From Nocardioides anomalus (GTDB taxonomy: Bacteria > Actinomycetota > Actinomycetes > Propionibacteriales > Nocardioidaceae): a stretch of 64,000 nt of DNA. The position numbers and the translations under genes were made by a program. The stretch spans positions 2,170,001-2,234,000 of the forward strand of contig NZ_CP049257.1 in the NCBI RefSeq assembly GCF_011046535.1, in the 5' to 3' direction. The notes beneath the pieces are model-generated. The model was given only the letters and a program-made list of their open reading frames with translations, did not search any database and was not told the origin of the DNA. How positions within the stretch are numbered: position 1 is the stretch's first letter; every line of letters starts with the position of its first letter. Shown piece by piece: positions 12,877-19,771 of this stretch.

Positions 12877-12914
12877 GGGCCGATCCTGTCAGAGGCGGCG
12901 ACTAGGGTGCGGGC

Positions 12915-13374
12915 GTGACGTCCTCCCCCTCTCGAGGCCACCGACCGGCAGATCCTCCAGCTGCTGGCCGCGGACGGCCGGATGTCCTTCACCGACCTCG
13001 GCAAGGCCACGGGCCTGTCCACGTCCGCGGTCCACCAGCGGGTCAAGCGCCTCGAGCAGCGCGGCCTGATCCTCGGCTACGGCGCGACCGTCAACCACGA
13101 GGCCATCGGCCTGCCGCTGACCGCCTTCATCTCCATCCGCCCGATCGACCCCTCCCAGCCCGACGACTCCCCGGCCCGGCTCGAGGAGATCCCCGAGATC
13201 GAGTCCTGCTGGTCGGTGGCCGGCGACGAGTCCTACATCCTCAAGGTCCGCCTGGCCCGCCCGAGCGACCTCGAGGACCTGCTCGCCCGCATCCGCCTGG
13301 CCGCCAACGTCTCCACGCGCACGACGATCGTGCTGTCGACGTACTACGAGAACCGCCCCGTCACCGGCGGGTGA
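12915..13374 (+). pseudogene. Lrp/AsnC-family regulator, broken by one extra base
   Basis: Starting at GTG 12915 the frame begins MTSSP and then derails; from about 12930 a second frame gives LEATDRQILQLLAADGR, the helix-turn-helix MSFTDLGKATGLSTSAVHQR and the ligand-binding RAM domain to the TGA at 13372-13374. Removing one C from the run of five at 12925-12929 restores a 152-residue protein of normal family size. The frame has no usable start before the ATG at 12982, which would lose the first HTH helix. Lrp/AsnC proteins sense amino acids; this one lies close to the lysine catabolic genes, so control of them is plausible but unproven. Frameshift may be a sequencing error. Confidence 0.8.
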
Positions 13375-14507: not shown

Positions 14508-15962
14508 TCAGTACGCCTGCAGCGCCGCCGTACGACGCGAGGCCTCGGCCATCTCGGCGGCCTTGAGCGCGGACTCGTCGAGCTGCCCGTGCTCGGCCCA
14601 CCACGCCTGGCCCTCGGCGGAGAGGGAGTGGATCGGGTCGTAGTACTCGTAGGTGCGGGTCAGCGCCTCGGGGTCGGCCGCCTCGATGGAGGTCCGGTAG
14701 TTCTTGGTCCAGTGCGAGATGCCGCGCACCTCGTCATACGACGCGAGCTGGTGCACCCAGCGCTTGCCGACGAACGGCACGTCACAGACGATGCGCGGGG
14801 TGGCGAAGCCCGGCAGGTAGCCCATGATGTGGTGCTGGAGCCGCTGGGCGTCGGCGACCGAGACCCGCCAGTGCTCCGAGAACGGGATCATGTCGCACAT
14901 GTAGAAGTAGTAGGGCATGATCTGCGCGCCGTCGAGCAGCCGGAAGCACAGGTCGAGCAGGGCGTGCGGGTCGGCGTTCACGCCGTTGAGCAGGACGCCC
15001 TGGTTGCGCACGTCGCGCACGCCGGCGTCGAGCATCGCGCGGGCGGCGTCGGCGACCAGCGGGGTCACCGAGTTGGCGTGGTTGACGTGGGTGTGGATGG
15101 CGATGGAGACCCCGCGGGCGCGCGCGGTCGAGGCGACCCGGCCCACGCCCTCGACCACGTCGGGCTGCAGCCAGTGCTGGGGCATCCCCATGAGGGCCTT
15201 GGTGGCCAGGCGGATGTCGCGGATGTTCTCGATCTCGAGCACCTGGGTGAGGAACGCCTCGAGCCGGGGCCACGGCATGTTGGCCACGTCGCCGCCGGAG
15301 ACGACCACGTCGCGCACCTGGGGCGTGCGGCGCAGGTAGTCGAGCATGTCTCCGAGCCGGTCGTTCGGCTTGCCGACGAACTTCAGCTTGTCGATGACCG
15401 CGGTGGAGTTGCCGACCAGGTCCATGCGGGTGCAGTGGCCGCAGTACTGCGGGCACGTGGGCAGCAGCTCGGCGAGCACCTTGGTCGGGTAGCGGTGGGT
15501 CAGCCCCTCGGTGGCCCACATGTCGTGCTCGTGCAGCGAGTCGCGGGTGGCGTGGGGGTGCGATGGCCAGTCGGTACGGCGGTCGGAGAAGACCGGCAGC
15601 ATGTACATCCGGACGGGGTCGGCGTAGAGCGCCTCGGTCAGCGAGCCCGGGCCGGCGGGCGTGAGGTGCGGGACCATCGTGTTGAGCATCTGCGGCGGCA
15701 CGAGCATCGACATCGTGGCGCGCTCGGCCTGGTCGCGCTCGAGGTCGGCGTAGAAGCGCTCGTCGACCAGGTCACCGAGCAGGTCGCGCAGCTGCTTGAC
15801 GTTCTTCACGCAGTGCGCGCGCTGCCACTGGACCGACTCCCACTCCGCGCGGGTGACGTCGCGCCAGCCCGGGAAGCGGGTCCAGTCCGGCTCCACCAGC
15901 TCGACACGCTGGTAGGGGTAGGGCTGACCGGTCTCGAGCCCGATGGACGTTTCAATGGTCAC
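14508..15962 (-). CDS. kamA: Lysine 2,3-aminomutase KamA
   Basis: A 484-residue radical SAM, PLP-dependent enzyme that converts L-lysine to L-beta-lysine. The iron-sulfur cluster motif C-x3-C-x2-C is at Cys170, Cys174 and Cys177 (CPQYCGHCTRMDLVG). The GGD motif for SAM binding (VVVSGGDVANM) and the PLP lysine region (VPFVGKRWVHQL) are present. It is longer than the short EpmB-type homologues, and it lies opposite the rest of the lysine pathway, so catabolism rather than EF-P modification is inferred. The GTG at 15962 starts it, 89 bases from the divergent kdd start. Confidence 0.92.
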   Translation of the reverse strand: MTIETSIGLETGQPYPYQRVELVEPDWTRFPGWRDVTRAEWESVQWQRAHCVKNVKQLRDLLGDLVDERFYADLERDQAERATMSMLVPPQMLNTMVPHLTPAGPGSLTEALYADPVRMYMLPVFSDRRTDWPSHPHATRDSLHEHDMWATEGLTHRYPTKVLAELLPTCPQYCGHCTRMDLVGNSTAVIDKLKFVGKPNDRLGDMLDYLRRTPQVRDVVVSGGDVANMPWPRLEAFLTQVLEIENIRDIRLATKALMGMPQHWLQPDVVEGVGRVASTARARGVSIAIHTHVNHANSVTPLVADAARAMLDAGVRDVRNQGVLLNGVNADPHALLDLCFRLLDGAQIMPYYFYMCDMIPFSEHWRVSVADAQRLQHHIMGYLPGFATPRIVCDVPFVGKRWVHQLASYDEVRGISHWTKNYRTSIEAADPEALTRTYEYYDPIHSLSAEGQAWWAEHGQLDESALKAAEMAEASRRTAALQAY

Positions 15963-15985
15963 TGTGCCACTGTAGGTGGACGATC

Positions 15986-16011
15986 TGCGGCATGTCCAAG
16001 CACACGCCGCA
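15986..16011. promoter_or_regulatory. Candidate operator between kamA and kdd
   Basis: Two 10-base arms, TGCGGCATGT (15986-15995) and ACACGCCGCA (16002-16011), form an inverted repeat with 9 of 10 matches around a 6-base spacer. It lies in the 89-base gap between the divergent kamA and kdd starts, where a regulator could control both. The nearest regulator is the Lrp/AsnC gene at 12915-13374, but binding is inference. Confidence 0.65.
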
Positions 16012-16051
16012 AATCATCCTGTTGAACGCGCAGTCATCGAGGAGAAACTCC

Positions 16052-17077
16052 GTGCGACCGAGTGACCCGACCGGGCTGCACCGTGTGCTGGACGACCGCA
16101 CCGTCCTGCCCCAGGCGGCGCAGCGGCTGGACACCCGGCGCGAGCTGTGGCCCGACGAGGTCCGGATCCGGGTCGAGCGGCTCAACCTGGACGCCGCGTC
16201 GTTCCGCCAGCTCGAGCGCACCCACGCCTCGCCCGACGCGGTGCGCGACGCCGTCCTCGACATCGTGCGCACGCGCGGCAAGATGCAGAACCCCGAGACC
16301 GGCTCCGGCGGCATGCTGGTCGGCACCGTCGAGGAGGTCGGCCCCGAGTCGCCGCTCGGTCTGCGCGTCGGCGACCGGGTGGCCACCCTGGTCTCGCTCA
16401 CGCTCACCCCGCTCGTGGTCGAGGACGACCTGGCGCGCTGGGACGGCCGCTCCGAGCAGGTGCCGGCCGACGGCTACGCGATCCTCTTCGGCCGCTCCAT
16501 CGCCGCCGTGCTGCCCGACGACCTGCCCGCCGAGCTGTCCCTGGCCGTCATGGACGTCTGCGGCGCGCCGGCGCTCACCGCCCGCGTCGTCGAGGGGTAC
16601 GACGCACCGGTGGTCGCGGTCATCGGCGGCGCCGGCAAGTCCGGCTCGCTCTCGCTGGCCGCGGCCCGCCGGGCCGGCGCCAAGCGCACCGTCGGCGTGG
16701 TGCCCACCGAGGCCGAGGCGCAGCTGCTGCGCGCCGCCGGCATCGCCGACGACGTGGCCCTGGCCGACGCCCGGGACCCGGTCGCGCTGCGCGACGCGGT
16801 GGCCGCCGCGGCCGGCGGTCCGGCCGACGTCACCGTGGTCTGCGTCGACGTCCCCGGGTGCGAGGGCGGCGCGGTGCTGACCACCGCGGCCGGCGGCACG
16901 GTCATCTTCTTCTCCATGGCCACGTCCTTCTCCGCCGCCGCCCTCGGTGCCGAGGGGCTCGCGGCCGACGTGACGATGCTGGTCGGCAACGGCTACGTGC
17001 CCGGCCACGCGGCGTACGCCGTGGAGCTGCTCCGTGAGCACGACGGCGTCCGGTCGCTGTTCGAGCGGCGGCTCTGA
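16052..17077 (+). CDS. kdd: L-erythro-3,5-diaminohexanoate dehydrogenase Kdd
   Basis: A 341-residue NAD-dependent dehydrogenase that deaminates 3,5-diaminohexanoate to 3-keto-5-aminohexanoate. The Rossmann loop is VVAVIGGAGKSGSLSLAAAR near residue 185, and the GTVEEVGPESPLGLRVGDRVA stretch (quoted in part) resembles medium-chain dehydrogenases. GAGGAG at 16039-16044 sits 7 bases before the GTG at 16052, so I prefer it to the ATG at 15992, which would read through the operator. The ATG of kamD overlaps the stop. Identity is supported by gene order with kamDE. Confidence 0.9.
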   Translation: MRPSDPTGLHRVLDDRTVLPQAAQRLDTRRELWPDEVRIRVERLNLDAASFRQLERTHASPDAVRDAVLDIVRTRGKMQNPETGSGGMLVGTVEEVGPESPLGLRVGDRVATLVSLTLTPLVVEDDLARWDGRSEQVPADGYAILFGRSIAAVLPDDLPAELSLAVMDVCGAPALTARVVEGYDAPVVAVIGGAGKSGSLSLAAARRAGAKRTVGVVPTEAEAQLLRAAGIADDVALADARDPVALRDAVAAAAGGPADVTVVCVDVPGCEGGAVLTTAAGGTVIFFSMATSFSAAALGAEGLAADVTMLVGNGYVPGHAAYAVELLREHDGVRSLFERRL

Positions 17078-18648
17078 TGGCCCGCAGGCCCCGCGGCAAG
17101 CTCGACCTCGACCCGGTCACCGTCCGCAAGGCGCGCGCGCTGGCCCGCAAGGCGGGCCGGCCGATCGTCGACCTGGCCCAGCAGCACACCACGGTCAGCG
17201 TCGAGCGGGCCACGCTGCGCATGGCCGGGCTCGGCGGCGCCGACGGCGACGGCATCCCGTGGGCCAACCGGCTCCTCGACACCGTCCGGGCGGACGTCGG
17301 GTTGGAGCACGGCGTCGCGCTGCCGGTCTGGGACGCCCTGGTCCGTGGCGAGGCCGAGGACCTGGCCACCCTGGCCCAGAAGGCCGGCGCCGGCTCGGTG
17401 CGGTTCCGGCTGCCCGAGGGCCGCGACGCGACGCGCGCCAGGAGCGCCGCGCGCAAGCAGGTCGGGGCGGGCCTCAAGCGCATCGACGCCCGCCGCCGGG
17501 AGCGCGAGCGGATGGTCCGCAAGCACGGCGACGCCCCGCGCACGCCGTGGATCTACCTCATCGTCGCGACCGGCGACATCATGGAGGACATCCCGCAGGC
17601 CCAGCAGGCCGCGCGCGAGGGCGCCGACGTGATCGCGGTGATCCGCTCGACGGGTCAGAGCCTGCTCGACTACGTCCCCGAGGGCGCGACCCGCGAGGGC
17701 TTCGCCGGCACCTACGCCACCCAGGAGAACTTCCGGCTGATGCGGGCCGCGCTCGACGAGTCCAGCGCCGAGCTGGGCCGCTACGTGCGCCTGACCAACT
17801 ACGCCTCGGGGCTCTGCATGCCTGAGATCGCCACCCTGGCCGGGCTCGAGCGGCTCGACATGATGCTCAACGACTCGATGTACGGGATCCTCTTCCGCGA
17901 CATCAACCCGGTCCGCACCTTCGTGGACCAGCGCTTCAGCCGCCAGGTCCACGCCCGCGCCGGCATCATCATCAACACCGGCGAGGACAACTACCTCACC
18001 ACCGCCGACGCCGTCGAGGCCGCGCACACGGTGACGACGAGCCAGCTGCTCAACGAGTACTTCGCCAAGGAGGCCGGGCTCGAGGACTGGCAGCTCGGCC
18101 TGGGCCACGCGTTCGAGATCGACCCGGACCTGCCGAACTCCTTCCGCATGGAGCTGGCCCACGCGCTGCTGGCCCGCGAGCTGTTCCCGGAGGCGCCGCT
18201 GAAGTGGATGCCGCCGACGCGGCACATGACCGGCGACGTCTTCCGCGGCAACCTGCTCGACGGCTTCTTCAACCTGGTCGGCTCGCTCACCGGCCAGGGC
18301 ATCCTGCTGGTCGGCATGATGACCGAGGCCGTGGTGACGCCGTGGCTCTCCGACCGCGACATCGCGCTGCAGAACGTCCGCTACGTCCTCAACGCCACCG
18401 GCGACCTGCACGAGGACTTCAACCCCGCCCCGGACGGCTTCATCGCCACCCGCGCCAGGCAGGTGCTGGGCGAGACCGTGGACCTGCTCGAGGCCATCGT
18501 CGACGACGGCCTGCTCGCGGCCATCGCGGACGGCACCTTCGGGCTCATGAAGCGCCCCGCCGACGCCGGCCGCGGCCTGGACGGCGTCGCGCGCAAGGCC
18601 GAGGCGTACTTCAACCCCGCCAGCGAGCTGCTCGAGGAGGCGCAGTGA
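17077..18648 (+). CDS. kamD: Beta-lysine 5,6-aminomutase alpha subunit KamD
   Basis: A 523-residue TIM-barrel subunit of the adenosylcobalamin- and PLP-dependent 5,6-aminomutase, which moves the terminal amino group of beta-lysine (or D-lysine) to give 3,5-diaminohexanoate. Long blocks match the family, for example PWIYLIVATGDIMEDIPQA, RSTGQSLLDYVPEGAT, RLTNYASGLCMPEIA and KWMPPTRHMTGDVFRG. Length is normal. The ATG overlaps the kdd stop, and the stop overlaps the kamE start, so the four downstream genes form a tight operon. Confidence 0.95.
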   Translation: MARRPRGKLDLDPVTVRKARALARKAGRPIVDLAQQHTTVSVERATLRMAGLGGADGDGIPWANRLLDTVRADVGLEHGVALPVWDALVRGEAEDLATLAQKAGAGSVRFRLPEGRDATRARSAARKQVGAGLKRIDARRRERERMVRKHGDAPRTPWIYLIVATGDIMEDIPQAQQAAREGADVIAVIRSTGQSLLDYVPEGATREGFAGTYATQENFRLMRAALDESSAELGRYVRLTNYASGLCMPEIATLAGLERLDMMLNDSMYGILFRDINPVRTFVDQRFSRQVHARAGIIINTGEDNYLTTADAVEAAHTVTTSQLLNEYFAKEAGLEDWQLGLGHAFEIDPDLPNSFRMELAHALLARELFPEAPLKWMPPTRHMTGDVFRGNLLDGFFNLVGSLTGQGILLVGMMTEAVVTPWLSDRDIALQNVRYVLNATGDLHEDFNPAPDGFIATRARQVLGETVDLLEAIVDDGLLAAIADGTFGLMKRPADAGRGLDGVARKAEAYFNPASELLEEAQ

Positions 18649-19382
18649 GCATCGTCCGCCCGTACGGCGACGCCACCGGCGACGGCATGGTGCAGCTGAG
18701 CTTCACCCTGCCGGTGCCGCACGACAAGGTCGCCGACGGCGCCGCCGTCCAGCTGGCCAACAAGATGGGCATGGACCCGGCGCTGGTCGTGCACAGCAAG
18801 CCGATGGGTCCGGACTTCACGTTCTTCGTGGTCTACGGCCGGGTCAACCACCTCGTCGACACCAGCACCGTCGAGGTCGTCGAGCGCGACTACCCGCTGC
18901 TCACGCCCAAGGAGGTCAACGCCGCGGTCAAGCGCTCGCTGCGCCGCCGCCTCGTCGTCGTGGGCGGCTGCATCGGCACCGACGCGCACACCGTGGGCAT
19001 CGACGCGATCCTCAACATCAAGGGGTTCGCGGGGGAGAAGGGGCTGGAGTACTACCGCGAGATCAAGGTGGTGAACCTCGGCGCCCAGGTCTCGGTCCCG
19101 CAGCTGGTCGAGCGCGCCCGCGCCGAGAAGGCCGACGCCGTCCTGGTCTCCCAGGTCGTCACCCAGCGCGACGCGCACCTGCTCAACACCCGCGAGATGT
19201 CCGCGGCCTTCCGCGAGGCCTACCCGCCGGAGCGGCGGCCGTTGCTGGTCGTGGGCGGGCCCCGCTTCGACGAGACCATGGCCGGTGAGCTCGGCGTGGA
19301 CCGCGTGTTCTCCCGGGGCACGACGCCCGGCGAGGTCGCGTCCTTCCTCGTGCACCGGATCGCCCCCCGGGCGGCGGCGTGA
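18645..19382 (+). CDS. kamE: Beta-lysine 5,6-aminomutase beta subunit KamE
   Basis: A 245-residue cobalamin-binding partner of KamD. The base-off B12 motif DxHxxG is at Asp113-His115-Gly118 (GTDAHTVGID), followed by the helical segment GFAGEKGLEYYREIKVVNLG and a second Rossmann-like half with VLVSQVVTQRDAHL. The GTG at 18645 overlaps the kamD stop. The organism must therefore make or import cobalamin. No B12 riboswitch is seen upstream of the operon, which has only 89 bases of leader. Confidence 0.95.
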   Translation: MSIVRPYGDATGDGMVQLSFTLPVPHDKVADGAAVQLANKMGMDPALVVHSKPMGPDFTFFVVYGRVNHLVDTSTVEVVERDYPLLTPKEVNAAVKRSLRRRLVVVGGCIGTDAHTVGIDAILNIKGFAGEKGLEYYREIKVVNLGAQVSVPQLVERARAEKADAVLVSQVVTQRDAHLLNTREMSAAFREAYPPERRPLLVVGGPRFDETMAGELGVDRVFSRGTTPGEVASFLVHRIAPRAAA

Positions 19383-19771
19383 GCGCCGAGGTCGGCACCC
19401 GCGTGGTGCACCGGCGCTACGTGCCGTACTCCGACGCCCACTACGCCGGGAACCTGGTCGACGGCGCCTACTCGCTCAAGCTGTTCGGCGACGTGGCCAC
19501 CGAGATGTGCATCGTCACCGACGGCGACGAGGGGCTGTTCGCGTCGTACGCCGACGTGCAGTTCAAGGAGGCGGTGCGCGCCGGCGACGTGCTGGAGATC
19601 AGCTGCACGCTGACCCGGGTCGGCACCCGCTCGCGCACCCTCGACCTGGCCGTCACCGTGGTGGCCCGCGGCGAGCCGACGCCCGAGCGGCCCGGCGCCG
19701 CCCGCGTGCTGGGCGAGCCGCTGGTGGCCACGACGGCCACCGGGACCGTGGTCGTGCCGCCTCGCGCGTAG
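19379..19771 (+). CDS. kal: 3-aminobutyryl-CoA ammonia lyase Kal
   Basis: A 130-residue hotdog-fold protein that removes ammonia from 3-aminobutyryl-CoA to give crotonyl-CoA, the last special step of lysine fermentation. Diagnostic stretches are DAHYAGNLVDGAYSLKLFGD, VATEMCIVTDGDEGLFASYA and VQFKEAVRAGDVLEI. The GTG start overlaps the kamE stop. Presence of Kal shows that the pathway runs to crotonyl-CoA, although the intervening cleavage enzyme Kce is not encoded in the window. Confidence 0.88.
   Translation: MSAEVGTRVVHRRYVPYSDAHYAGNLVDGAYSLKLFGDVATEMCIVTDGDEGLFASYADVQFKEAVRAGDVLEISCTLTRVGTRSRTLDLAVTVVARGEPTPERPGAARVLGEPLVATTATGTVVVPPRA

Follow-up and report, generated by a model that had tools for sequence, protein, structure and literature searches.

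The B12-dependent route of lysine degradation is best known from fermenting bacteria that avoid oxygen. In these anaerobes, the lysine fermentation pathway is encoded by kamA, kamD, kamE, kdd, kce and kal, as described in PMC3149608. Among the papers listed in our literature search, which left out most subscription journals, none was recognised as describing this pathway in aerobic actinobacteria. The DNA analysed here, called the window, is a stretch of 64,000 bases (bases 2170001-2234000 of the closed 5,120,341-base genome of Nocardioides anomalus). An earlier note, made from the letters of this stretch, had pointed out lysine 'fermentation' genes in what was probably an aerobic, high-GC actinomycete. 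We consider it very likely that these genes form the central part of a full 'fermentation'-type pathway of lysine catabolism, whose kce gene is unlinked.

The cluster consists of five genes, and kamA was found divergent from a tight kdd-kamD-kamE-kal operon, just as the earlier note had described it. The kamA-like gene (14508..15962, minus strand) encodes a radical SAM protein of 484 amino acids that resembles lysine 2,3-aminomutase. On the plus strand lie kdd, for L-erythro-3,5-diaminohexanoate dehydrogenase (16052..17077), kamD (17077..18648), kamE (18645..19382) and kal, for 3-aminobutyryl-CoA ammonia lyase (19379..19771). The overlaps are 1 base between kdd and kamD and 4 bases at both the kamD/kamE and the kamE/kal junctions; the kamE start codon is a GTG that overlaps the kamD stop. 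When scored with NCBIfam profiles, the products of these four genes passed the NCBI equivalog cut-offs: 254 bits for Kdd (NF052381, cut-off 200), 689.3 for KamD (NF052384, cut-off 600), 345.3 for KamE (NF052385, cut-off 280) and 178.1 for Kal (NF052388, cut-off 160). In addition, KamD matched PF09043 with 808 bits, and KamE matched PF16554 and PF02310. The kdd reading frame opens at its first ATG at 15992 (plus strand) and ends at 17077; its start is likely to be the GTG at 16052, just 3' of an AGGAG at 16040-16044, rather than this ATG. Immediately 3' of kamA, and in the same orientation, is a glyoxalase-like gene (PF13468, 13866-14477). KamD gave one match in the whole genome; the second kam cluster carrying kce, which would have spoken against the reading of the earlier note, did not appear.

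The first enzyme was named KamA-like, and not KamA, because it scored below the AblA equivalog cut-off (TIGR03820, 162 bits against 525.4); it also missed the KamA subfamily cut-off (TIGR00238, 152.1 against 199.2). The sole solved relative retrieved at E 0.001 was lysine 2,3-aminomutase 2a5h (E 7.6e-39), and public records name the near relatives of the protein 'lysine 2,3-aminomutase'. In the alignment, the equivalents of R134, D293 and D330 of 2a5h, which we take to be the contacts of that enzyme with its lysine substrate, are kept. A motif search found CxxxCxxC and both Asp patterns; all three patterns occurred in 117 of 120 near relatives, the remaining 3 being without one of them. The KamA-like protein shares with 2a5h the cysteines of the radical SAM motif as well as the residues aligned to the substrate contacts. 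Its loop before the PLP-lysine, as read from the alignment, is one residue shorter.

A score so far below the AblA cut-off could mean that the lower part of the pathway works as described and that the upper part takes a substrate other than L-lysine, for instance D-lysine, ornithine or a modified lysine. A relative described below (G290), in which kdd, kal and kce occur without any KamD match, points the same way, as the lower half could there be fed otherwise. Such a substrate is nevertheless decidedly unlikely, given the conserved contact residues and motif patterns just mentioned, and given that KamD and KamE exceed the lysine models and remain far under the ornithine one.

The nearest named KamD relatives belong to Kribbella, Nocardioides and related actinomycetes, with identities of up to 88%, in keeping with the high-GC actinomycete setting first proposed. 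Among the best 80 of 593 named KamD loci, kamA is divergent from kdd in all 68 loci holding both genes, and the order kamD-kamE-kal is found in all 78 loci holding the three. This conserved arrangement in relatives confirms that the layout of the cluster is real and dismisses chance as its origin. A BKACE gene was found in none of these 80 loci, many of which end at contig ends; the absence of kce from the cluster is thus the usual state in this setting.

Two other neighbours were noted in the relatives. Of the 72 loci that hold kdd as well as kamD, 39 have an amidohydrolase gene (PF07969) between the two, and this enzyme was considered as a member of the pathway. The candidate was rejected and judged a neighbour by position: some PF07969 match was found in 246 of 296 class genomes, with strong ones among genomes that have no KamD match (G153, G208, G191), and a relative at 34% is all that the window genome offers. 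In G196, kal is followed by a gene for a MutL protein (PF13941, L151:5770-7104), which could possibly be a reactivating factor for an aminomutase.

The earlier note had seen no kce in the window and had suggested looking for a DUF849/BKACE protein in the rest of the genome. A whole-genome search with the BKACE family gave three genes, all of them outside the window. One of these, P0003 (G000:C1:3919639-3920475), located about 1.7 Mb from the cluster, was identified as the kce candidate. Its product reached 294.4 bits against Pfam BKACE (PF05853, cut-off 24.8). Its closest solved relative was Kce 2y7d with 190.9 bits, the next chain scoring 136.3, and the alignment covered residues 5 to 274 of the 279 of 2y7d (E 2.7e-55). 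Four NCBIfam models were matched, the best being that of Kce (NF052387, 259.8 bits; next 189.5), where the score stays under the equivalog cut-off of 382. Eight of the nine active-site positions compared with 2y7d are identical, Glu14 included; Glu14 and the compared zinc and catalytic positions presumably represent active-site residues of Kce. The exception is Thr106, replaced by Ser in P0003 and in 29 of 29 orthologs. Glu14 is found in P0003 and in the same 29 orthologs, and is absent from the other two BKACE proteins. In a tree of 20 BKACE sequences comprising 8 of the 29 orthologs, the P0003 clade together with Kce and 3CHV was split from the five other rows at 99/98; within this group the branch order between the P0003 clade, Kce and 3CHV was unsettled and the branches were long. 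Public records name the near relatives of P0003 '3-keto-5-aminohexanoate cleavage protein'.

The association of P0003 with the cluster was followed in 296 genomes of the class and in 147 genomes of the genus. A P0003 ortholog was defined by an identity of at least 58%; among the matches listed, the others reached at most 39% where they were near full length and up to 43% where they were short. KamD and P0003 were each compared with the identical set of 296 class genomes, and one of the KamD matches (G108) is a piece of 61 residues only. In the class, 61 genomes had both genes, 3 kamD only, 3 the P0003 ortholog only and 229 neither, which corresponds to an ortholog in 61 of the 64 genomes with a KamD match versus 3 of the 232 without. 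In the genus, the counts were 88, 6, 0 and 53, respectively, i.e. 88 of 94 kamD-bearing genomes versus 0 of 53 others. As sampled, kamD is thus carried by about two thirds of the genus (94/147) and by a fifth of the class (64/296). The Fisher values of 1.2e-55 (class) and 1.2e-33 (genus) are too small and overstate the evidence, since the genomes are related to one another, yet the contrast within a single genus is difficult to account for in any other way. The six genus genomes with kamD only (G299, G377, G395, G412, G426, G427) are drafts of at least 130 contigs that are 71-98% complete. In the class, those with kamD and without the ortholog are G261 (100% complete), G023 (80%) and G150 (68%); those with the ortholog and without kamD are G290 (100% complete), G069 (94%) and G244 (81%).

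Two relatives bring the candidate next to pathway genes. In G275, kdd, kamD, kamE and kal share a strand, and the P0003 ortholog (69%) adjoins kdd in divergent orientation; the 19 kb read at this locus showed no KamA. The G290 genome gave no KamD match, but has kdd (50%), kal (54%) and the P0003 ortholog (61%), arranged in this order and all on the same strand. This G290 locus (L149, G290:C1:4766000-4784000) also contains, judged by eye, branched-chain-type ABC transporter-like and hydantoinase-like genes. The lower pathway of G290 may be supplied from a different substrate.

Taken together, the sequence comparisons and the co-occurrence indicate that P0003 is very probably kce, unlinked and inherited together with the cluster. 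Of the two alternatives offered in the earlier note, co-occurrence and the linkage seen in relatives speak strongly for a kce located elsewhere, while a different cleavage is not needed. The latter could involve another BKACE protein, or CoA activation of 3-keto-5-aminohexanoate followed by thiolysis with a thiolase. The genome does contain two further BKACE genes, P0003 does score under the Kce cut-off, and BKACE enzymes are described as promiscuous in PMC4922564. We still hold this possibility to be unlikely: both other proteins lack Glu14, one of them (P0001) passes the 3,5-dioxohexanoate model (467.7 against 430) and the other (in L002) is closest to 3c6c, and the P0003 orthologs track kamD and adjoin kdd and kal in the two relatives. 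A UPF0261 gene immediately precedes the BKACE gene of the 3,5-dioxohexanoate type in the window genome (L004:7578-9767).

The third relative to be considered is G261, where kamA, kdd, kamD and kamE lie on one strand and adjoin genes for an AMP-binding enzyme and a luciferase-like monooxygenase (L148, G261:C1:600000-618000). No kal match was found in the 18 kb read at this locus, and the P0003 ortholog is absent from the G261 genome. This cluster perhaps yields 3-keto-5-aminohexanoate or 3,5-diaminohexanoate as a building block, a biosynthetic use that fits both the gene setting and the absence of the ortholog. If the G261 case were extended to the window, the cluster studied here would itself be biosynthetic, and its product, whether beta-lysine, 3,5-diaminohexanoate or something derived from them, would serve as a building block or a solute. 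This appears most improbable for a cluster that ends in kal, with the kamD-kamE-kal order conserved in relatives, that co-occurs with kce, and that, by eye, has no adjoining ligase or peptide-synthetase genes. Lysine catabolism remains the preferred reading of the window cluster.

In this catabolic reading, the KamA-like protein would convert L-lysine to beta-lysine, which KamDE, with B12 and PLP, would transform into 3,5-diaminohexanoate. Kdd would oxidise the latter to 3-keto-5-aminohexanoate. With the Kce step, the lysine route would reach acetoacetate and crotonyl-CoA, the last being released by Kal upon removal of ammonia. The subsequent steps, to acetyl-CoA for respiration instead of butyrate, would fall to a CoA-transferase and to enzymes of beta-oxidation. 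We infer the substrates, the reaction directions, the role of the CoA-transferase, the regulator and the respiratory use from the genes. Family matches were obtained in the genome for CoA-transferase genes, which occur in pairs, for CobS, which bears on the B12 synthesis that the earlier note had asked about, and for COX1, a homology that extends over two adjacent frames (G000:C1:1302227-1303557; profile positions 2-299 and 299-436). Such a split suggests that the gene for cytochrome oxidase subunit I is frameshifted or that the sequence contains an error; the presence of a COX1-type oxidase gene, albeit in two frames, agrees with the aerobic host initially supposed. From these matches, acetoacetate activation, B12 finishing and electron respiration could all occur. 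Lysine 6-aminotransferase (TIGR03251) gave no match over the cut-off in the genome (136.6 against 520.8).

The region between kamA and kdd contains an inverted repeat (15978..16019) with arms at 15978-15995 and 16002-16019 that are 83% complementary, and that represents a candidate operator. Of 69 regions between kamA and kdd, 32 carry its core with a 14-base spacer when up to 4 mismatches are allowed, versus 0-7 of 69 for each other spacing from 8 to 20; this contrast is partly circular, the half-site having been picked after the sites with the 14-base spacer had been seen. The corresponding weight matrix was built from 29 sites hand-picked from the 69, that of the window included. The window dyad is the only mismatch-free match genome-wide, and one-mismatch counts across the genome equalled those of the reversed-pattern control (3 and 3), giving no sign of further sites. 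A weak sigma-70-like match (15969..15998, minus strand, 9 of 12 matches), which overlaps the dyad, would direct transcription into kamA; one such match was found versus 0.1 expected in the 4.3 kb scanned. An operator common to kce was also considered and is not clearly supported: the spacing-14 core (at most 4 mismatches) occurs in 5 of 30 regions upstream of kce, versus 0-4 of 30 at other spacings, and the upstream region of the window genome's own kce shows the core with 6 mismatches.

Near kamA, a frame for an Lrp/AsnC-type regulator (12919..13374, plus strand; PF13404, PF01037) is a candidate for the control of the cluster, and an Lrp relative is present in 56 of the best 80 of 593 loci. 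In the window (12881-12990), no ATG, GTG or TTG follows the stop until inside the DNA-binding domain, and the frame of the relatives continues upstream to a start; the frame may have shifted slightly at this start, or the sequence may contain an error there. The dyad and the nearby Lrp/AsnC gene suggest how the cluster may be controlled: the dyad, to which the Lrp/AsnC protein might bind, would act in both directions.

The locus represents an already known pathway, with diverged forms of KamA and Kce, in a host where it was not expected; public records already carry names for near relatives of both proteins. On balance, and with reserve, we lean towards a broader view, in which the lysine 'fermentation' route would be a standard degradation of lysine to acetyl-CoA without carbon loss in respiring soil actinomycetes, with KamA and Kce subfamilies of its own and with halves reused as modules (kdd-kal-kce without the aminomutases in G290, the natural-product-like kamA-kdd-kamD-kamE in G261). 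If this is true, many respiring soil bacteria would have a lysine route dependent on B12 and radical SAM chemistry, which curated models recognise only partly because KamA and Kce fall under their cut-offs. One gene, P0003, is singled out as the candidate for the missing step, and the question can be tested by single deletions.

In comparison with lysine fermentation in anaerobes, the same reactions are expected, and four of the proteins (Kdd, KamD, KamE and Kal) score above the NCBI cut-offs set for the pathway outlined in PMC3149608. Unlike in the anaerobes, kce is unlinked here, and KamA and Kce are divergent and below the cut-offs. The COX1-type oxidase gene is a further difference, crotonyl-CoA being presumably respired and not reduced to butyrate. 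Compared with the Kce of Candidatus Cloacamonas (2y7d), P0003 differs by the Ser in place of Thr106, by its separate long-branch clade and by its score under the NCBI Kce cut-off. Finally, the Kat variant of lysine fermentation shares the upper pathway, according to the same paper (PMC3149608), but uses the transaminase Kat, whereas the operon of the window has Kal instead.
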